Assembly (NCBI GenBank): GCA_944393235.1
Contig: CALXZJ010000007.1
Span: 1 to 55,498 of the forward strand
DNA length: 55,498 nucleotides
From: an uncultured Alphaproteobacteria bacterium
GTDB taxonomy: Bacteria > Pseudomonadota > Alphaproteobacteria > RF32 > CAG-239
Reading direction: 5' to 3'
Of this stretch, positions 9,597 through 37,943 are shown in pieces. The position numbers and the translations under genes were made by a program. How positions within the stretch are numbered: position 1 is the stretch's first letter; every line of letters starts with the position of its first letter. The notes under the pieces were generated by a model that was given only the letters and a program-made list of their open reading frames with translations, searched no databases and was not told the DNA's origin.

Positions 9597-10344
9597 CTGC
9601 TTTTCCTCGGGTTAAAAAGTTATAAACAGTTTCATCAGGCGGGTTTTTCAACAGCTCTTTTGGGTTGCCTTGGGCGGTAATCGTTTTGCTTTCGGCGTCA
9701 AGAAAGACGGAGTTTGTGCCAATGGAAAAAATAGATTCCAATTCATGCGTGACCACCACCAGTGTTGTGCCCAAGTTTTGATTAATATCTTTCATCAAGC
9801 TGTCCAGCCGTGCCGAACTGACCGGATCCAGTCCGGCGGAAGGCTCATCAAAATAAACGATTTCCGGATCAAGCGCTAAAGCTCGGGCAAGTCCGGCGCG
9901 CTTTTTCATACCGCCACTGATTTCTGCTGGATAATAATCGCCAAAACCGCCCAAACCGACAAGCGATAACTTAAGATTGACCAATTCATCAATAACATCA
10001 GCTGGATAATCGCTGTATTTTTGCAAGGGCAGGGCAATGTTTTCCGCCAGCGTCATGGAAGAAAACAATCCGCCGCTTTGGTATAAAATGCCGACCTTTT
10101 TCATAATTTCTAATTTTTGGGCATTGTCGGCTTTAGGATAATCCACGCCGTTGATATAAAACGTTCCGCCGACCGGCGGCATCAATCCGGTCAAAACCCG
10201 CAACAAACTGCTTTTTCCCGAACCGGAACCGCCCATAATGATAAAAATGTCATTTTCTTTGACGCTAAAATCGGCGCTTTTGATAATCACTTTTTCGCCA
10301 TACGCCACTTTTAAGTTTTGACAGATGATTTTATCTTTGCTCAT
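9577..10344 (-). CDS. mlaF: Mla-type ABC transporter ATPase
   Basis: ATP-hydrolysing subunit driving phospholipid movement between the membranes. All ABC motifs are present in its 255 aa: Walker A GGSGSGKSSLLRVL, signature EISGGMKKRAGLARAL, Walker B IVYFDEPSAGLDPV and the switch histidine in VVVTHELES. It overlaps mlaE by four bases (ATGA) and mlaD by 20. Complete and typical. Confidence 0.96.
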   Translation of the reverse strand: MSKDKIICQNLKVAYGEKVIIKSADFSVKENDIFIIMGGSGSGKSSLLRVLTGLMPPVGGTFYINGVDYPKADNAQKLEIMKKVGILYQSGGLFSSMTLAENIALPLQKYSDYPADVIDELVNLKLSLVGLGGFGDYYPAEISGGMKKRAGLARALALDPEIVYFDEPSAGLDPVSSARLDSLMKDINQNLGTTLVVVTHELESIFSIGTNSVFLDAESKTITAQGNPKELLKNPPDETVYNFLTRGKADEKRTK

Positions 10345-11447
10345 AGCCCCAGCCTTTCAAAAATCACCGTAATGATGCCGGTAGCCACAATCATCCACAC
10401 AATGGATGAAACCACGGCTTTGGTGGTGGCAACACCGACGCCGTCGGCATTGCGCCCGCTGTTAACGCCGTAATAACAACCGCATAAAGCAATAATAAAT
10501 CCAAACACAAAACCATGAAAAACGCCGACCCAAAAATTGGTCATGCTCCAAGCGTCCCAAGCATATTTCCAATATTCACCGGCAGGAATATCCAAAAGCA
10601 CGATACCGACAAACCCACCGCCCAAAATGCCGGCAAAATCAGCCAATATGGTTAAAAACGGCATGGCTAACACCAAAGCCGAAAGGCGTGGTAAAATCAA
10701 AAAATCAGTTGTCGGAATACCCATGGTTTTAAGCGCGTCAATTTCTTCATTAACCTGCATGGTCCCGAGTGTTGCGGCAAATGAGGCGCCGGTGCGCCCG
10801 GCCATGATAACTCCGACCATAATAGCACCCATAATGCGGGTCATACCGATGGTAACAAGGCTTGCCACATATATCTGTGCGCCGAAAGTTTTGAGTTGTA
10901 TGGCGCCGACAAAAGCCAATATCAACCCGACCATAAAACTGATGAGAGAAACGATGCCGACAGCTTTAGGACCGCAATCTTCCAACGCAAACAAGAAATC
11001 AACCTTGCGCATGACGGCACCGCCCTTAAAAAAACGCGACAAAGACCCAAAACTTTCCGAAACGAAACTTAAGCCTTTAATAACTGTCTGATAAATTTCC
11101 CATCCATTGCCGCCGAGCCGTTCTAAAAAACCGCTTTTTTCGGGACGGATGACATCGGTATGCGGTTTGACAGCCAAGGCAAGATTGAGCATCCGGTTCA
11201 AGCCGTCGGGCAGGGATTTTGTTTTTAAGCTTATGCGGCGTTTTTGGGCAATTCTGCTCAACTCAAACAAAATCAGCAGTAAAGAAGAATCCCATTTTTT
11301 AATATTTTGTCCGTCAACAACAATGTTTTTAACACGTTTTTCATTGGCGGCTTCATATAAGCCCGGATTTGCGGAAAAATGCAAAAAATCGCCGTTTAAG
11401 GCAATTTCCAAAATATCTTGATTGATATTAAACATCAAATTCTGCAT
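10341..11447 (-). CDS. mlaE: Mla-type ABC permease with N-terminal STAS domain
   Basis: Inner-membrane permease of the lipid transporter, 368 aa. Residues 1-~95 form a STAS-like domain, a fusion common in alphaproteobacterial MlaE; E. coli encodes the STAS protein separately as MlaB. The remainder is the MlaE permease with segments such as GVIMAGRTGASFAATLGTM and VNEEIDALKTMGI. First gene of the leftward operon mlaE-mlaF-mlaD-lipoprotein-alr. Confidence 0.95.
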   Translation of the reverse strand: MQNLMFNINQDILEIALNGDFLHFSANPGLYEAANEKRVKNIVVDGQNIKKWDSSLLLILFELSRIAQKRRISLKTKSLPDGLNRMLNLALAVKPHTDVIRPEKSGFLERLGGNGWEIYQTVIKGLSFVSESFGSLSRFFKGGAVMRKVDFLFALEDCGPKAVGIVSLISFMVGLILAFVGAIQLKTFGAQIYVASLVTIGMTRIMGAIMVGVIMAGRTGASFAATLGTMQVNEEIDALKTMGIPTTDFLILPRLSALVLAMPFLTILADFAGILGGGFVGIVLLDIPAGEYWKYAWDAWSMTNFWVGVFHGFVFGFIIALCGCYYGVNSGRNADGVGVATTKAVVSSIVWMIVATGIITVIFERLGL

Positions 11448-30358: not shown

Positions 30359-31303
30359 TCAGCCGGCAAATCTTTTGCAAAATTGTTTGATTTTCTTTAA
30401 TTTTGCCGCTCTTTTCCATCGCTTTTTATTTCGTTTTATCTGCTTGCCATCAAGAAATAGATACTCCTTGAAATAATCTTGGAAAAACGGCGTATAAGTC
30501 AAATATCTAAACCACAATTCGGCTTTATGAACAAAAGGATTTATCCAAGGCTTATGTTTTTGCACATAATGTATCTGAACAGGTTTTTTCAAAGCTTCTT
30601 CAAATTCTTTTTTTGTTGCGGTGTAGGAAAAATTAAAAAGAATATTATCCGCGATAAACCAAGGTGTCAGAACCATGTTTTTAGGATGGATAAGCTTAAT
30701 GTGCGGGTAACATACCTGCGATAATATTTCCTGTTCGGTTAGATGTAGATATGCATGGTATTCTTTTAAATAATCAAAGCATTTGTTTTCAATATTATCC
30801 TCGCGCATTTTCTTTAAGTTCATAATTAAATAACCGGCGCCGGTTAAAAAATGCATGTTATCATCGGTAATATCTTGTGAAAAAGGTTTGTGTTGAATTT
30901 CGTGTACCTGTTTAACACCGGCAAAATATTCATCAGTCGTAAAGTTGATATATTCTTTGGATATATCTCCTTCAAACACGACATCAACATCGGTTAAAAT
31001 AATTTTATCCATATTGGGAAATTGTGTTTCCAAACATAATTTATATAAAATTTCAACCGGGTATTTAGTTAAATGTGCGTACTCTGAAAATTTATTGTTC
31101 ATTTCCAAAAATTTAAGAGAGGCATTGGAAAACATTTCGACAATCTGTCGGATTTTATCCTGATTTTCTGATGAGATATCATTATGCATGATGAAAAGGT
31201 TATAAAAATGTTGTTTATCAGCATGCAAAAGCATGCTGTATATTGCCGGTCCGCTCGGAATGGCATAATTATTGTTAAACATCATGACAACAGGGATAAT
31301 CAT
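30359..31303 (-). CDS. glycosyltransferase, GT8-like
   Basis: 314-aa cytoplasmic glycosyltransferase of the GT8 type (LPS galactosyl/glucosyltransferase fold). It opens with VVMMFNNNYAIPSGPAIYSML and has the metal-binding DxD in ILTDVDVVFEGD near residue 105, and TGAGYLIMNLKKMRED further on. The last ~25 residues are very basic (KRNKKRWKRAAKLKKIKQF), typical of a membrane-associated tail. Last gene of the first leftward operon (GT32-wecB-GT8), overlapping wecB by four bases. Donor and acceptor are unknown. Confidence 0.88.
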   Translation of the reverse strand: MIIPVVMMFNNNYAIPSGPAIYSMLLHADKQHFYNLFIMHNDISSENQDKIRQIVEMFSNASLKFLEMNNKFSEYAHLTKYPVEILYKLCLETQFPNMDKIILTDVDVVFEGDISKEYINFTTDEYFAGVKQVHEIQHKPFSQDITDDNMHFLTGAGYLIMNLKKMREDNIENKCFDYLKEYHAYLHLTEQEILSQVCYPHIKLIHPKNMVLTPWFIADNILFNFSYTATKKEFEEALKKPVQIHYVQKHKPWINPFVHKAELWFRYLTYTPFFQDYFKEYLFLDGKQIKRNKKRWKRAAKLKKIKQFCKRFAG

Positions 31304-32415
31304 GGCAAAACCTTTTCAAAAATCTCTGCAATTTTTTTAGCGGCATGACCGTCGCCATATGGATTTACAATGTCAAGAATCCTTGTCTTGTTTTTATCTT
31401 GCGATAAAACAACAGTGGTTTGTTTTATAATTTTGTCTGTATCTGCACCGACTAATTTGGTAAATCCGGCATCAACGCCTTCTTGTCTTTCGGTTTCATA
31501 ACGCATAACCAAAACCGGCGTGCCGAAAGTCGGCGCTTCTTCTTGTATTCCGCCGCTGTCCGTCAAAATAAGTTTAGCATTTTTCATCAAGCACACTAAC
31601 TCCGGATAATCCAAGGGTTCGGTTAAAATAACGTTAGCAAATTTTTTAAGGCCATCAACCACCTTTCCCCGCACATTCGGATTTGGATGCACCGGAATAA
31701 CAAATGTATGCTCCGGAAATTTTTGCACCAAATTCGTTAATGCTGCCAAAATGTTATCTAAACGATTGCCATGGTTTTCACGCCGATGGACGGTTACTAA
31801 TACCAACTTGTCGTTGATATTAATTTTTTTAGCTGCTAAATTATGTAAAGCTTGTTTTTGAACGCTTTGGGGAATACAATTTAAAGCATCGATAACAGTA
31901 TTTCCTGTTACTAATATATCAGTTTCTTGAATATTTTCTTGCAACAGGTTTTGTTTTGCTTTTTGGGTCGGTGCAAAATGAAAACGACAAATTCGGCTGG
32001 TCATTTGTCGGAGAGCTTCTTCCGGAAATGGTTCAAATAAATCAAAAGAACGCAGTCCGGCTTCCACATGAAAAACCGGAACTTTATGATAAAAAGCTGC
32101 CAAAGCGCCGCAAAAAACCGACATTGTGTCACCTTGTACGATTACCGCATCATAAATCGATTCGTCAAAAATGCTGTTAAGTTTTGTAAGCATTCGGGCT
32201 TGTAAATCGCTCAAAGATTGGTTAGGAGCCATAACATCCAAACTTATATCAGCCTTAATACCGAAAAATTGCAATGTCTGGTTTGACAACTCTTTTTGTT
32301 GTTCTGTGTTCAAAACCGTTATGTTATAATTTGCACTCTTTCGCAACTCCAAAATGACCGGTGCAAGTTTTATAGCTTCCGGTCGAGTTCCCAAAATAAC
32401 GATAATGTTTTTCAT
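31300..32415 (-). CDS. wecB: UDP-N-acetylglucosamine 2-epimerase (non-hydrolysing)
   Basis: Interconverts UDP-GlcNAc and UDP-ManNAc for surface polysaccharide. 371 aa, standard length. IVILGTRPEAIKLAPVILEL at the start, VQGDTMSVFCGALAAFY, HVEAGLRSFD, VTVHRRENHG and LTDSGGIQEEAPTFG are family signatures. It shares one base (TAATG) with the upstream GT32 gene. Its presence predicts N-acetylmannosamine, or a derived sugar, in the glycan made by operon 1. Confidence 0.95.
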   Translation of the reverse strand: MKNIIVILGTRPEAIKLAPVILELRKSANYNITVLNTEQQKELSNQTLQFFGIKADISLDVMAPNQSLSDLQARMLTKLNSIFDESIYDAVIVQGDTMSVFCGALAAFYHKVPVFHVEAGLRSFDLFEPFPEEALRQMTSRICRFHFAPTQKAKQNLLQENIQETDILVTGNTVIDALNCIPQSVQKQALHNLAAKKININDKLVLVTVHRRENHGNRLDNILAALTNLVQKFPEHTFVIPVHPNPNVRGKVVDGLKKFANVILTEPLDYPELVCLMKNAKLILTDSGGIQEEAPTFGTPVLVMRYETERQEGVDAGFTKLVGADTDKIIKQTTVVLSQDKNKTRILDIVNPYGDGHAAKKIAEIFEKVLP

Positions 32416-33209
32416 TATAGCGAACTCCTAAGCAGGCATATTTTTTTATTTTTGGATAAGTTTAGGGTATACAACACAGATTCGCCTTTTAGCAAAGGTA
32501 GAGAATCTCCATTGATTTTTGAACGTTTTTTAAAACGTACGAGTTTATATCTACCAAAAGAAAATAAATTTTTTCTGGCATAAGCATCAAGCCATGAACC
32601 ACTGAAATGGTGAATGGCATAATTTTCTTTTTTATCTTCCGGCGTACAAAAAAACCACCATGGAAAAATGGTACATTTTTCAGTCAAAACGGTTTTTTGC
32701 GTACCGTCATAAGGCTTATTCAAATTAAAGTTTTTTTGAAAATAACGACTAATGCGGGAAGTGTTTGTCGTTTGATCCATTTTTCCGTTTTTAATAAACG
32801 GAATATGGTCGTATTCTGCCAACAAATCTTGAATGATTTTTTGCTTTGGTTCGGCACCCATTAAAGCCGTTATGGGAGAAAAGTTCCCCTCATAGTTTTC
32901 ATATCCGCTGACAAATTGCAAATGACGGAATTGTTCAAGGCTTTGAGTTACTTCCAAATCGGTGTCAAAATAAAATCCTCCCTCATTAAAAAGCGCATAT
33001 AAACGTAAGTAATCCGAAACAAAAGCCCATTTTTTATATTCAAAAGCTTGAGAAACATAAAGGTTATCAATCTTTTTTAAGGATTCGTTATTCCATTCTT
33101 TAATCTCATAATCTGGACAATACTTTTTCCAGCTTTCTATACATTTCAAAACAAGTTCCGGTTTCGGCTTATCGCCAACCCAAACATAATGAATTTTTTT
33201 AGGGATCAT
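32415..33209 (-). CDS. glycosyltransferase, GT32/Gly_transf_sug type
   Basis: 264 aa. IPKKIHYVWVGDKPKPE at the N-terminus and YLRLYALFNEGGFYFDTDLE, with its DxD near residue 95, place it with the Och1/capsular sugar transferases (glycosyltransferase sugar-binding DXD region). First gene of operon 1, with AGGTGG six bases before the ATG. The 120-bp invertible element at 33241-33360 lies directly upstream, so its expression probably depends on the orientation of that element. Confidence 0.88.
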   Translation of the reverse strand: MIPKKIHYVWVGDKPKPELVLKCIESWKKYCPDYEIKEWNNESLKKIDNLYVSQAFEYKKWAFVSDYLRLYALFNEGGFYFDTDLEVTQSLEQFRHLQFVSGYENYEGNFSPITALMGAEPKQKIIQDLLAEYDHIPFIKNGKMDQTTNTSRISRYFQKNFNLNKPYDGTQKTVLTEKCTIFPWWFFCTPEDKKENYAIHHFSGSWLDAYARKNLFSFGRYKLVRFKKRSKINGDSLPLLKGESVLYTLNLSKNKKICLLRSSL

Positions 33210-33240
33210 TTTTTACCACCTGTATCTTTATCATAAACAA

Positions 33241-33360
33241 TAAACCAACGTTTGATTTAGTATAAGAGTACTATAAAGCACAAAGTAACTATTTGTGTTT
33301 TTTCTTATGCTTATCCACAAATACTTTTTTTTAAAATAATAAAAATCAAACGTTCGTTTA
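33241..33360. promoter_or_regulatory. invertible promoter element 1
   Basis: A 120-bp element bounded by 18-bp inverted repeats (33241-33258 and 33343-33360) that differ at one base; the perfect inner part is AACGTTTGATTT. The core has TATAAA (33272-33277, plus strand), the dyad CACAAA/TTTGTG (33279-33297) and a consensus DnaA box TTATCCACA (33311-33319). It is the reverse complement of the element at 37215-37334. The right repeat overlaps the stop codon of the GT2 gene. Inversion by the nearby serine recombinase is inferred from this architecture. Confidence 0.8.
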
Positions 33361-34335
33361 ATCCTTATGTCCTTTGAATAAACGACGTTTTAAACACTTG
33401 ATTTTTGCTTTTATAAAAATTCTTATCCAGGCGTTGCTTTTTAAGAGTTCATATCTTTTCCGGTTTTGTACCTTTTTAAAATCTGCTTTGGAAACATTCC
33501 ACTCTTGAATTATGCGCGCAATTTCAGAACAACCGCGCCGGAAATAAGACCACGGCAATCTGCAGCAAGATTCATATAAAGCATGTATTTCATATTCTGG
33601 ATTAAAAATTTCCGGTTTGTTTTGACGTATAATATTTATGCATTTTTCAGCAACTTTTATGTAAGCAAAATCTCTTGGTTCGCCTTTATTAAAATTTGTT
33701 TTTGTAATAGAACTTTCATTGTTTCTGTTCCAGTGATACAAATTTTGGCTGCAAAGATAAATTTTATCAGCATGGCTTAAAAGGCTGATTTGAAAGATTC
33801 TGTCTTCCGCGACAAAACCTTCTCCGAACCGAATATTGTTTTGTCGGATAAAGTCGGTTTTTATGAGTTTGCCCCAAGGGCTGATAAAAAAAGCACAAGC
33901 TTCTTTATCAACCGTATATAATTTATCAACATACCAGTTTCGGGGAGATTGTTTACCGTCCTTATCCACAAACCAATTTGCAAAAACAGCGGGCGTTTGA
34001 TATTTTGTTATCAAATCATAAAGCGTTTGCATAGCTGCCGGCTCATAGTGGTCATCATTGTCAATAAAAGCAACATATTCGCCGGTTGCTGCATCAATTC
34101 CGGCATTGCGCGATGAACCGGGGCCGACATTGTTTTTGTTTTCAAGCAGTACAATCCGTTGGTCTTTTTTCTGCATATTCTTTATCAAATTGGTGGAATT
34201 GTCTGTTGAACAATCATCAACGCAAATCAGTTCAATGTTGGCATAAGTTTGCTTTAAACAAGAATCGATTGCTTTTTGAAGCCACGCCTCGGCATTATAA
34301 ACCGGAACAATAACAGAAATTTTCGGTTGCTTCAT
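33358..34335 (-). CDS. glycosyltransferase family 2
   Basis: 325 aa. The GT2 (GT-A) domain opens with ISVIVPVYNAEAWLQKAID, followed by CVDDCSTDNS and YVAFIDNDDHYEP (the DxD position, here DND). VAEDRIFQISLLSHADKIY is the acceptor-side ED motif. The C-terminal ~60 residues are basic. Last gene of operon 2 (GT2, GT8-GT4, GT2), overlapping its upstream neighbour by four bases. Its stop codon lies inside the inverted repeat of element 1. Confidence 0.92.
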   Translation of the reverse strand: MKQPKISVIVPVYNAEAWLQKAIDSCLKQTYANIELICVDDCSTDNSTNLIKNMQKKDQRIVLLENKNNVGPGSSRNAGIDAATGEYVAFIDNDDHYEPAAMQTLYDLITKYQTPAVFANWFVDKDGKQSPRNWYVDKLYTVDKEACAFFISPWGKLIKTDFIRQNNIRFGEGFVAEDRIFQISLLSHADKIYLCSQNLYHWNRNNESSITKTNFNKGEPRDFAYIKVAEKCINIIRQNKPEIFNPEYEIHALYESCCRLPWSYFRRGCSEIARIIQEWNVSKADFKKVQNRKRYELLKSNAWIRIFIKAKIKCLKRRLFKGHKD

Positions 34336-36257
34336 TTTGTGGCTTCCTCTTGAATCACGTTTCTTAAATCCGTCACAAAACGGGTAATGTTATGTGTTTG
34401 ACGAATATAATCAATCGCCGCTTTGGCTTTTTGTGCATATAAAGCGTCATCTTCCATAAGTTTTTTGACTGCCGGTATAAATTTTTCCACGCCGTCAAAA
34501 CCATCGCCGGAAATTTCGCCGACAAATTCGCCAAACTGTGCGGCCAGATTCTCACGTTCTAAATCGGCAACCAATACAGTGCCGTAAGACAACGCCTCCA
34601 GCCATGAAATCGGGATGCCTTCCCAAATGGCGGTACTTAATAAAATGCGCGATTCTTTAATCAGCTTTTTCTTTTGTTCGCCGTCCACGTGACCGACAAA
34701 ATGCAGGTTGGGAATATCGCCGTTCATATAAGGCGCCAACATTCTTTTATTGTCATTTTGGTATCTGAAAAACTGCCCTAAAACATAAAACTCATATTCC
34801 GGCATTCTTTTGGCAACCTCACAAAACAACCAACAGCGTTTTTGTGCTTCCAGCCGACCTAAAAAGATAATTTGCTTTTTCTTTTTGGTAATATCAAAAT
34901 TAAAGTCAAAATCTATATCGACCGGATTGGGTAAATATTGGATAGGCGTATTGCGGGGCAAATTATATAAATCAATAGCTAATGGGTTTAAGGAATACCC
35001 TTGTGAAATAAATTTTATCCTTCCTTGTTCTGCCAACGCATGCACGGTATCATAAATTTTTTGATTATAAAAACAAGGGTCTTTAATAGATTGCATGGTA
35101 TCAATGGTTTGCTCCCAGGCTGATTTCGGCCGCGGATCTTGTATCCATAATATCAGACGTTTGTTTGCATCCGGTTCATGTTTTAAAACAAAATCACTTG
35201 TCAGTTCAATGGAAAGATATAAGTCATAATTTCGTTTTTTAAGCCAGCGGCGTGCCAAAAAATTGTTGCGAGGAATGCGGTACAAATCTACATTGTCTTC
35301 ATGAAATTTTTGTGCCCAAAATTTGTGTTTTGATTTTCCGAGCAGAACGTCTATTTGAATATCTTCATCGGGAATATATTTAGCGATATATTTACGGGCC
35401 AAAAAGCCGTAGCCGCCGAAAGCGGTTTTAGCGCCACCGAAAAATTCATCAATCAGCAAACCGACTTTGATTTTTTTATTTTGAATTTCTTGGTTTAATT
35501 TATTATACTTTTGCCAAACATTTTTTAACTTATTGCGGCACTCTTTCATCCAGGGTTTCTTTTGGCCAGTATAATGGATAACAACTGCATCTTTGCGTTT
35601 AGGTCTTTCAGCCCGGACATTTTCAGAAGTAAAATTATAAATGCTGTCGATTTCTTTTATCTTGTTTTTAAATGTAATGTTAATAACATCTTGATCCTGA
35701 TATTTAATTTTTCCGGTCAAGTTTTCCGTGTTTTCAAAAAGTTTTTGCACCATATTGTCTTCGCGGATTTTCTTTAAATTCAGAAGTAAAACGCCGGCAT
35801 TTACATACAAATCATCTTCTTTAAAACCGATTTTTGCTTTATGGCCTTCTTTTTCAATACATAAATCACGCACGCCGGCAGCATAAAAGCCCTCAAGAGG
35901 AATATTCCAAAGGTTTTTCAATGAGCCGTTCACTGCCAAATCAGCGTCAAGATAAAGAACTTTATCCAGTTTCGGAGCAATATCGGCGATAACATAACGA
36001 AAATACGTTTCAATCGTGATGTACGGAATATTGAGCTTTAAATTTTTAAATAAATTTTCATCCGGACAAATATAAGAGATTTCCCAGTTTTTATATTTTT
36101 TCTTTAATTTTTCAACCTGTTGTTTGCTTTTTAGAGAAAAATCCCGGCTCAAAATAAAGAAATGAAATTGTTCGTCTTTATTATTTTCCAAAACAGAAAC
36201 AATGGAAACACATAATTGTTCGGCATAAGTATCATTAACGGCAAAAAATATGTTCAT
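34332..36257 (-). CDS. two-domain glycosyltransferase, GT8 fused to GT4
   Basis: 641 aa. Residues 1-~265 are a GT8 domain: MNIFFAVNDTYAEQLCVSIV, VLYLDADLAVNGSL with the DxD near residue 103, NAGVLLLNLKKIRED, and HYTGQKKPWM. Residues ~275-641 are a GT4 (GT-B) domain: QIIFLGRLEAQKRCW and STAIWEGIPISWLEALSYG carry the nucleotide-sugar binding E-x7-E pattern. One polypeptide could thus add two consecutive sugars. It overlaps both neighbours by four bases. Confidence 0.9.
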   Translation of the reverse strand: MNIFFAVNDTYAEQLCVSIVSVLENNKDEQFHFFILSRDFSLKSKQQVEKLKKKYKNWEISYICPDENLFKNLKLNIPYITIETYFRYVIADIAPKLDKVLYLDADLAVNGSLKNLWNIPLEGFYAAGVRDLCIEKEGHKAKIGFKEDDLYVNAGVLLLNLKKIREDNMVQKLFENTENLTGKIKYQDQDVINITFKNKIKEIDSIYNFTSENVRAERPKRKDAVVIHYTGQKKPWMKECRNKLKNVWQKYNKLNQEIQNKKIKVGLLIDEFFGGAKTAFGGYGFLARKYIAKYIPDEDIQIDVLLGKSKHKFWAQKFHEDNVDLYRIPRNNFLARRWLKKRNYDLYLSIELTSDFVLKHEPDANKRLILWIQDPRPKSAWEQTIDTMQSIKDPCFYNQKIYDTVHALAEQGRIKFISQGYSLNPLAIDLYNLPRNTPIQYLPNPVDIDFDFNFDITKKKKQIIFLGRLEAQKRCWLFCEVAKRMPEYEFYVLGQFFRYQNDNKRMLAPYMNGDIPNLHFVGHVDGEQKKKLIKESRILLSTAIWEGIPISWLEALSYGTVLVADLERENLAAQFGEFVGEISGDGFDGVEKFIPAVKKLMEDDALYAQKAKAAIDYIRQTHNITRFVTDLRNVIQEEATK

Positions 36258-37201
36258 CCCTTGTTCTCCTTCATGATTTTATGATATTTCCAATAACGCA
36301 GCGGGTTATGACCGCGCCAGTGCAATAAACCTTTTTGCTGTAAATCGCGCAATTCTTCGGCAAAAGCCTTATACATCAGCGGCTTAAGCGCACTGTCGGC
36401 GCATTCACAGCGTTTAAGCTGCTGCTTTAAGATATTGGGCACCAGCTTACGGCGGATAAGCTTAAATTCATTTTTAAGAGCTTCCGACGAATAAACCTCA
36501 TAAATAAAACCAAGCCCGGCATGGTAGTCTTTTATTTGTTGAGGATTGTTTTTTTGGTGTGAAATGGAAGCCTCGTTGATGCGGTAAAAATAAAGCGGCT
36601 CATCAATAATCACGGTTTTCGGTTTTCTCGCCATCACGGCAAATGTGTGCGGATAATCCTCAAAGTGGATTTTGGGAATAAACTCAAGCCCGTTTAACAA
36701 TTTCCGCCGGTAAAACTTCGTCCAGACATTAAAACGGATTTTATGCTTTTTACGAAAGCAACTCTTAAGCGGGAAAGATGTTGTTTTGCTTTTTAATTCT
36801 TTTGTATCAAAATGGATAACCTTTGGCATTTTTTCTTTTATTTTAGCATAAGAAAAACAAACCAGATCAGCATTGTTCGTTTCTGCTAAAAAATGTGCAA
36901 GCTCCAGGCATTGCGGATGTATGGCATCATCAGAATCTACAAAATAAACGTATCTGCCGCACGCTTCTTTTAACCCGTTGTTGCGAGCCATGGAAAGCCC
37001 TTGATTGCTTTGTGTGACAATTTTAACACGTTGGTCTTTATCTGCATATTGGCGCAAAATTTCAGGACTGTTGTCGGTTGAGCCGTCGTTAACACAAATA
37101 ACTTCAAAATCCTTAAATGTTTGTGCCAAAACACTATCCAAACATTCATTTAAATATTTTTCCACATTGTAGACCGGAATAATAACAGATATTTCAGGCA
37201 T
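36254..37201 (-). CDS. glycosyltransferase family 2
   Basis: 315 aa from the ATG at 37201, which has AGAGGGA upstream; the frame opens 27 codons earlier, but that part lies in the invertible element. The GT2 domain has ISVIIPVYNVEKYLNECLD, CVNDGSTDNSPEILRQYA and YVYFVDSDDAIHPQ (DSDD). IHFEDYPHTFAVMARKPKT is the acceptor motif. First gene of operon 2, placed directly after invertible element 2. Confidence 0.92.
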   Translation of the reverse strand: MPEISVIIPVYNVEKYLNECLDSVLAQTFKDFEVICVNDGSTDNSPEILRQYADKDQRVKIVTQSNQGLSMARNNGLKEACGRYVYFVDSDDAIHPQCLELAHFLAETNNADLVCFSYAKIKEKMPKVIHFDTKELKSKTTSFPLKSCFRKKHKIRFNVWTKFYRRKLLNGLEFIPKIHFEDYPHTFAVMARKPKTVIIDEPLYFYRINEASISHQKNNPQQIKDYHAGLGFIYEVYSSEALKNEFKLIRRKLVPNILKQQLKRCECADSALKPLMYKAFAEELRDLQQKGLLHWRGHNPLRYWKYHKIMKENKG

Positions 37202-37214
37202 TTTCCCTCTGCAA

Positions 37215-37334
37215 CAAACGGACGTTAAATCTTTATTGTTTTTAAAAAAAGTATTTGTGGATAAGCATAAGAAAAAACACAAATAGTTACTTTGTGCATT
37301 ATAGTACTCTTATATTAAATCTAACGTCCGTTTG
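37215..37334. promoter_or_regulatory. invertible promoter element 2
   Basis: A 120-bp element with inverted repeats CAAACGGACGTTA (37215-37227) and TAACGTCCGTTTG (37322-37334). The core carries TATAAT on the minus strand (37298-37303), pointing to the GT2 gene at 37201, the dyad CACAAA/TTTGTG (37278-37296) and a DnaA box (37256-37264, minus strand). It aligns without gaps to the reverse complement of element 1. The two elements therefore stand in opposite orientations relative to their own operons. Confidence 0.8.
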
Positions 37335-37343
37335 ATTGACAAT

Positions 37344-37359
37344 ATAGACTTTAGTCTAT
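37344..37359. terminator. hairpin over the recombinase stop codon
   Basis: ATAGACT and AGTCTAT pair around TT and include the TAG stop of the recombinase gene. There is no strong U-run. It could limit read-through from the recombinase into invertible element 2. Confidence 0.4.
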
Positions 37360-37943
37360 CTTTTCAAAAAAGCATAAAGTGTCGGCAAACTAATCCCGAT
37401 TTGTCTGGCAACCTCGGCTTTAGGTACATGTGCACTCAACAGGTCGAATATTTTCTTTTCTTTACCGTCAATAATATGCTTTTTATTTTTGCTTCCGTTT
37501 TGTCGTCCGAGTTTTTTACCGTTAGCTTTAAGCCGAGCCAACGCTTCTTTTGTACGTTGCGAAATCAGGTTGCGCTCAATTTCGGCAGAAAGCGAAAAAG
37601 CAAAAGCCAAAACCTTGCTCTGAATATCAATTCCCAATCTAAAATTATCTTTAATTGTCCAAACTTGCGATTTTTTTTGAATGCAAATGTTTAAGATAGC
37701 CATAATTTGTAAAAGACTGCGCCCCAAGCGCGAAATCTCCGAACAAATCAAAATATCACCGGATTTAAGTCTTTGCAGCAATCTTCCGAGTTTCCGTTTT
37801 TTTAAGTCCGCTGTGCCGCTGATGGTTTCGCATACCCAATGATCAATTTTGATTTTGGCTTTCTCACAAAATTTATTGATTTCGTATTTTTGATTTTCTG
37901 CCGTTTGTTTATCGGTTGAAACTCTGACATAACCGTATATCAT
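37356..37943 (-). CDS. serine site-specific recombinase (DNA invertase, Hin/Mpi type)
   Basis: 195 aa, the size of small serine invertases. The catalytic serine is Ser9 in YGYVRVSTDKQT. GDILICSEISRLGRSLLQI carries the active-site arginines. The E helix is near LAFAFSLSAEIERNLISQRT, and the C-terminal helix-turn-helix is PKAEVARQIGISLPTLYAFL. AAGGAG precedes the ATG. It lies 21 bases from invertible element 2 and is read toward it, which strongly suggests these repeats are its targets. Resolvase function instead cannot be excluded from sequence alone, but the flanking inverted repeats favour inversion. Confidence 0.93.
   Translation of the reverse strand: MIYGYVRVSTDKQTAENQKYEINKFCEKAKIKIDHWVCETISGTADLKKRKLGRLLQRLKSGDILICSEISRLGRSLLQIMAILNICIQKKSQVWTIKDNFRLGIDIQSKVLAFAFSLSAEIERNLISQRTKEALARLKANGKKLGRQNGSKNKKHIIDGKEKKIFDLLSAHVPKAEVARQIGISLPTLYAFLKR

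Follow-up and report, generated by a model that had tools for sequence, protein, structure and literature searches.

Two putatively invertible promoter elements and an Mpi-type serine invertase in a probable phase-variable glycan locus of a gut alphaproteobacterium

Two glycosyltransferase operons running in the same direction are each preceded by a copy of one short element, and a gene for a serine DNA invertase adjoins one of the copies. Are these elements (E1 and E2) promoters flipped by the invertase, and are the two operons switched in this way? The window, which is the whole stretch of 55,498 nucleotides analysed here, corresponds to contig C7 of a 1.43-Mb genome (98% complete). It very likely (probability about 0.87) contains a phase-variable glycan locus, in which E1 and E2 are inverted independently by the Mpi-type invertase. 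The features are listed in Table 1.

Table 1. Positions of the elements, genes and sites considered here. Positions are those of the window unless another locus (L015, L202) is named.
Feature	Position	Strand	Remarks
Element E1	33241..33360	-	invertible promoter element 5' of GT32-wecB-GT8 operon; ON orientation inferred
E1 operon-side inverted-repeat arm	33242..33258		AAACC-AA-CGTTTGATTT; central dinucleotide 33247-33248
E1 distal inverted-repeat arm	33343..33359		rc AAACG-AA-CGTTTGATTT; central dinucleotide 33353-33354
Candidate -10 of E1, TATACT	33259..33264	-	abuts inner arm edge, reads toward operon; -35 weak
Element E2	37215..37334	-	invertible promoter element 5' of GT2-GT8/GT4-GT2 operon; core opposed to E1; OFF inferred
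E2 operon-side inverted-repeat arm	37216..37232		AAACG-GA-CGTTAAATCT; central dinucleotide 37221-37222
E2 invertase-side inverted-repeat arm	37317..37333		rc AAACG-GA-CGTTAGATTT; central dinucleotide 37327-37328
Candidate -10 of E2, TATATT	37311..37316	+	homologous to that of E1, points away from operon
Serine DNA invertase, Mpi family	37356..37943	-	NF009949 298.7 bits vs cut-off 272; R7, S9, R72, R75 present
GT32-like glycosyltransferase	32415..33209	-	PF04488; E1 operon gene 1
wecB, non-hydrolysing UDP-GlcNAc 2-epimerase	31300..32415	-	TIGR00236, 441 bits
GT8 glycosyltransferase	30359..31303	-	last of E1 operon
GT2 glycosyltransferase	36254..37201	-	E2 operon gene 1
GT8-GT4 fusion glycosyltransferase	34332..36257	-	E2 operon
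GT2 glycosyltransferase	33358..34335	-	last of E2 operon; stop codon within E1 arm
C21 element	L015 4464-4651		IR 12/13, 162-bp core; 5' of dead invertase paralogue and rfbA/rfbC-like genes
C21 dead Mpi-type invertase paralogue	L015:3876-4442	-	first gene of rfbA/rfbC-like operon
C10 element	L202:1498-1683		IR 17/17, 156-bp core; directly 5' of MBOAT O-acyltransferase gene

E1 and E2 are aligned in opposite orientation without gaps, with 91% identity over 118 bp, and their homology ends at the outer borders of the inverted-repeat arms. The 17-bp arms match at 16/17 positions in E1 and at 15/17 in E2, with a spacer of 84 bp in each. Besides these two, no inverted-repeat pairs of such quality are seen within 32.0–39.5 kb. 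Shuffled windows contain approximately two inverted repeats of ≥15/17 per 55 kb, and a 16/17 repeat in just one of 12 shuffles. Repeat quality taken alone is modest and not decisive evidence. The duplication of an element with both repeat pairs in register, together with its recurrence beside related invertases, is far beyond chance. E1 is situated 31 bp upstream of the GT32-like gene and E2 13 bp upstream of the GT2 gene. This anatomy is shown directly, and here the original prediction held on every point: two near-identical, gap-free, opposed 120-bp elements closed by their own inverted repeats, each immediately ahead of a glycosyltransferase operon that runs leftward and has the gene contents described, and a Hin/Mpi-type invertase gene whose 3' end lies 21 bp from E2. 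It also proposed a search for the 120-bp element in related genomes. When the E1 DNA was compared with 54 genomes, the matches outside the host genome were short and AT-rich, and were judged to be chance. A DnaA-box-like sequence, TTATCCACA, is present in the core common to E1 and E2 (33311-33319 on the plus strand; 37256-37264 on the minus strand).

The family of the enzyme is also shown. The invertase clears the cut-off of the NCBIfam model "Mpi family master DNA invertase" (NF009949) and keeps the four catalytic residues listed in Table 1, as do 105/105 live sequences compared. Its relatives at E ≤ 1e-30 are found in 110 of the 152 genomes of the host family. The action of the intact invertase on E1 and E2 is inferred; the support for its inversion activity is only indirect and comes from relatives, where an equivalent element has been flipped in nature. 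Another Mpi-type invertase of the genome, 66% identical, is encoded on contig C8. No inverted repeat comparable to those of E1 and E2 was found next to this gene, and its targets might be the elements on contigs C21 and C10.

The arms fit two inverted half-sites about 2 bases: AAAC(C/G)-AA-CGTTTGATTT for E1 and AAACG-GA-CGTTARATYT for E2. They are Mpi-like, of the form AAACG-NN-CGTTT. The E1 arm includes AAACGTTCGT, which fits ARACGTTCGT, the motif given for the Mpi promoters of B. fragilis (PMC8375218). Invertase sites of the E1/E2 type resemble hix. In all 15 elements typed, the central dinucleotide is equal in both arms and never palindromic, although this match is inflated since the arms had been chosen for similarity. 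The dinucleotides are AA, GA/TC or GT/AC, and the four elements of the host genome carry AA (E1), GA (E2), GT and AC. In Hin, a one-base mismatch of the core nucleotides blocks ligation in the inverted orientation (PMC4817059). It can be inferred from this behaviour that the difference between AA and GA should prevent exchange between E1 and E2.

The architecture recurs in the host family, and this is likewise a plain observation. Inverted repeats of ≥14/15 within 420 bp downstream are found for 12/33 invertases of ≥62% identity and in 10/1500 control windows. In the family loci, the elements have spacers of ~73–160 bp and lie 21–155 bp downstream of the invertase gene; their arms differ from locus to locus while matching within each locus. 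Most operons downstream of the relatives' elements are of the polysaccharide type (glycosyltransferases, sugar-nucleotide enzymes and epimerases). At a loose threshold, a downstream inverted repeat is seen in only 25/100 invertases, which indicates that adjacency to an element is a property of a subclade. Locus L069 encodes, within a polysaccharide operon, proteins composed of many tandem resolvase-type HTH modules (L069:5509-6519, 9618-10685).

Natural inversion of an equivalent element is shown between sister species. When the cores and flanks of all elements were compared with one another, three orthologous loci emerged in one genus (g4): L116 (genome G068), L120 (G062) and L117 (G069). Between L116 and L120, the flanks are collinear and the 161-bp element is inverted; L117 agrees with L120 in orientation. 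If one core is inverted in silico, the cores of L116 and L120 align with few mismatches. A base distinguishing the two outer half-sites keeps to its flank in both genomes, which places the exchange in the arm itself, in the stretch CACCATTT; the predicted crossover dinucleotide is part of this stretch. Being a comparison of species, this evidence bears on the type of element and not on E1 and E2 themselves, for which no inverted state was observed (a single genome per species, no reads). The predicted switching of both operons by promoter inversion is supported by the enzyme family, the site structure, the conserved architecture and the inverted orthologous element in relatives, but is not shown at E1 or E2.

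The direction of the promoters is inferred. In relatives, the best promoter-like pair, TTGAC/TTGNNA-N17/18-TATAAG, has its TATAAG or similar box directly against an arm, and several of these promoters are better than those of E1 and E2; the pair is directed toward the operon in four elements (G020a, G081, G126 and G066) and away from it in three (G060, G020b and G087). By analogy with this TATAAG, the promoter of E1 and E2 would exit at the end with TATACT (E1) or TATATT (E2), and the captured state is likely E1 ON and E2 OFF. This is the least secure step of our reading. The call rests on analogy only, because the -35 is weak in E1 and E2 and the promoter scores in both directions are within the range of shuffles.

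The original prediction that one operon is on and the other off is conditional on the absence of E2-driven read-through into the E1 operon. The E2 operon ends with a GT2 gene whose stop codon (33358-33360) falls within the E1 arm, so there is no obvious terminator between the two operons, and transcription driven by E2, if any, could continue through E1. A hairpin of the OFF orientation was considered as a terminator; read rightwards, the E1 sequence gives a strong hairpin (z -3.5) but that of E2 is weak (z -1.0), so this role is not claimed.

The proposed mechanism is as follows. The invertase would bind the hix-like sites, two inverted half-sites around the central dinucleotide, cut at this dinucleotide and flip the ~100-bp cores of E1 and E2 separately. 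The -10 box of the core promoter would lie against one arm, giving transcription when it faces the operon and none when it faces away. In the captured state, the GT32-wecB-GT8 operon would probably be ON via E1, and the GT2-GT8/GT4-GT2 operon OFF via E2. Each element would recombine its own two sites, religation between E1 and E2 would be prevented, and the intervening operon would be spared from inversion or deletion. This insulation, like the effect on the glycan, is inferred.

The alternative that survives best is that E1 and E2 are decayed invertible elements, frozen in opposed orientations and serving now as ordinary regulatory regions. The 1–2 mismatches between arms, the weak -35 and the absence of the other orientation from any second genome (the species is represented by a single genome) could be taken in its favour. 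However, the invertase adjoining E2 is intact and lacks none of its catalytic residues, the two arms of each element still share their central dinucleotide, and an element of relatives with similarly imperfect arms was inverted recently. We consider this explanation improbable. Recombination between E1 and E2 could instead invert the whole GT2-GT8/GT4-GT2 operon (~3.9 kb) and switch its direction. E1 and E2 are indeed mutually inverted, and their long identical stretches are sufficient for homologous recombination. This possibility has little to support it otherwise: the dinucleotides are AA and GA, a core mismatch stops religation in the recombinant orientation in the case of Hin (PMC4817059), single elements suffice in relatives, and it is the inversion of a single core that is observed there. 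The remaining alternative is a dispersed repeat, MITE-like or regulatory, that has nothing to do with the recombinase and whose copies E1 and E2 are opposed by accident. It would agree with two short near-identical copies (only two by similarity) with terminal inverted repeats, but can practically be ruled out, as the repeat type recurs beside Mpi-type invertases although the cores are unrelated there and the arms not identical, the genome has no multi-copy family (the MITE idea was dropped for too few copies), the arms are Mpi-like and the equivalent element inverts in relatives.

Besides live invertases, 36 homologues were found without the catalytic set kept by all 105 live sequences. In the tree, 32 of 35 such dead paralogues form one clade (support 0.62). 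They retain the C-terminal HTH, and several of them stand first in polysaccharide operons. A strict inverted-repeat element is directly upstream of 13/32 dead paralogues, compared with 10/1500 controls. At some loci (L108 and L128), the element separates a live invertase gene from a dead paralogue transcribed divergently, so that either gene could be served in turn by a single promoter. The dead paralogues might be transcriptional or recombination regulators. No experiments on them were found in the open-access literature searched, and to our knowledge none has been done on dead invertase paralogues. A bolder reading can be speculated, in which the family has a two-layer switch: Mpi-type invertases would flip glycan promoters, dead paralogues, encoded first in many of the switched operons (at C21 in the host genome), would act as feedback or cross-locus regulators by binding to invertase sites or to related sequence and would be a functional counterpart of UpxY/UpxZ, and element-specific dinucleotides would insulate the switches. 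Taken as a joint claim, this could prove wrong as easily as right.

The reading of E1 and E2 as independently inverted promoters can be compared with known systems. Invertible capsule promoters are a hallmark of gut Bacteroidales. In B. fragilis, the Mpi (FinA) system also has an Mpi-family serine invertase, invertible promoters between inverted repeats ahead of its polysaccharide operons, several such elements in one genome, and the motif fitted by the E1 arm (PMC8375218). The present system differs in several respects. Its host belongs to gut Alphaproteobacteria and not to Bacteroidales. The invertase gene is beside an element and further elements are in trans, whereas B. fragilis has one remote master gene. 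The central dinucleotide varies between elements. UpxY/UpxZ are lacking at the head of the inspected operons, as glycosyltransferase genes head both the E1 and the E2 operon; in relatives and at C21, this place is taken by a dead invertase paralogue, and some operons of relatives start with biosynthesis genes. The promoters of relatives are TTGAC/TATAAG-like. The Salmonella Hin/hix flagellar switch shares the serine invertase, dimeric sites and a 2-bp staggered crossover (PMC4817059). The core of E1 and E2 is much shorter, contains no invertase gene, and glycan operons are switched. Gut-bacterial invertons of PhaseFinder-type surveys (Jiang et al. 2019; PMC11892184) are likewise short promoter inversions, intergenic and bounded by inverted repeats, near surface genes. 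E1 and E2 meet this layout, being short intergenic segments bounded by inverted repeats upstream of a gene.

One survey found inversions in 0/4 Alphaproteobacteria (PMC5903667). The open-access inverton literature that was searched describes motifs of, among others, Bacteroidota and Akkermansia, but contained no system from Alphaproteobacteria, in agreement with the original statement that none was known to be described for this group. We regard the locus as a known mechanism in a new lineage; a further layer of regulation, possibly new, may be present in the dead paralogues, which, when heading switched operons, are a candidate new class of regulators. That small-genome gut Alphaproteobacteria share this enzyme family, site type and set of target genes with Bacteroidales suggests that surface switching is convergent or horizontally shared in this uncultured lineage. 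Crossover dinucleotides specific to each element point to a way in which several switches could be served by one kind of enzyme without the chromosome being scrambled.

The history of the locus can be approached with the congeneric genome G001. There, radC is directly joined to the invertase gene, and the entire 30.4–37.35 kb cassette (30396-37343) is missing, including both elements. The orthologues of E1 and E2 could therefore not be compared with this genome. The GC content of the cassette in the window is 0.32–0.40 against a mean of 0.41. The cassette was either gained in the host or lost in G001. Two more elements of the host genome lie in trans, on C21 and C10, so that switching may extend to several functions of the surface glycan, as it does in B. 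fragilis. The C21 element is the sole orthologous element common to the host and G001, and its orientation is equal in both. In the comparison of the C21 element between L107 (the host genome, G000) and L109 (G001), G000 is longer by 31 bases, which are flanked by two GGTCGT sites in direct repeat. The G001 element resembles the product of a site-to-site deletion, which is one possibility, or of slippage.
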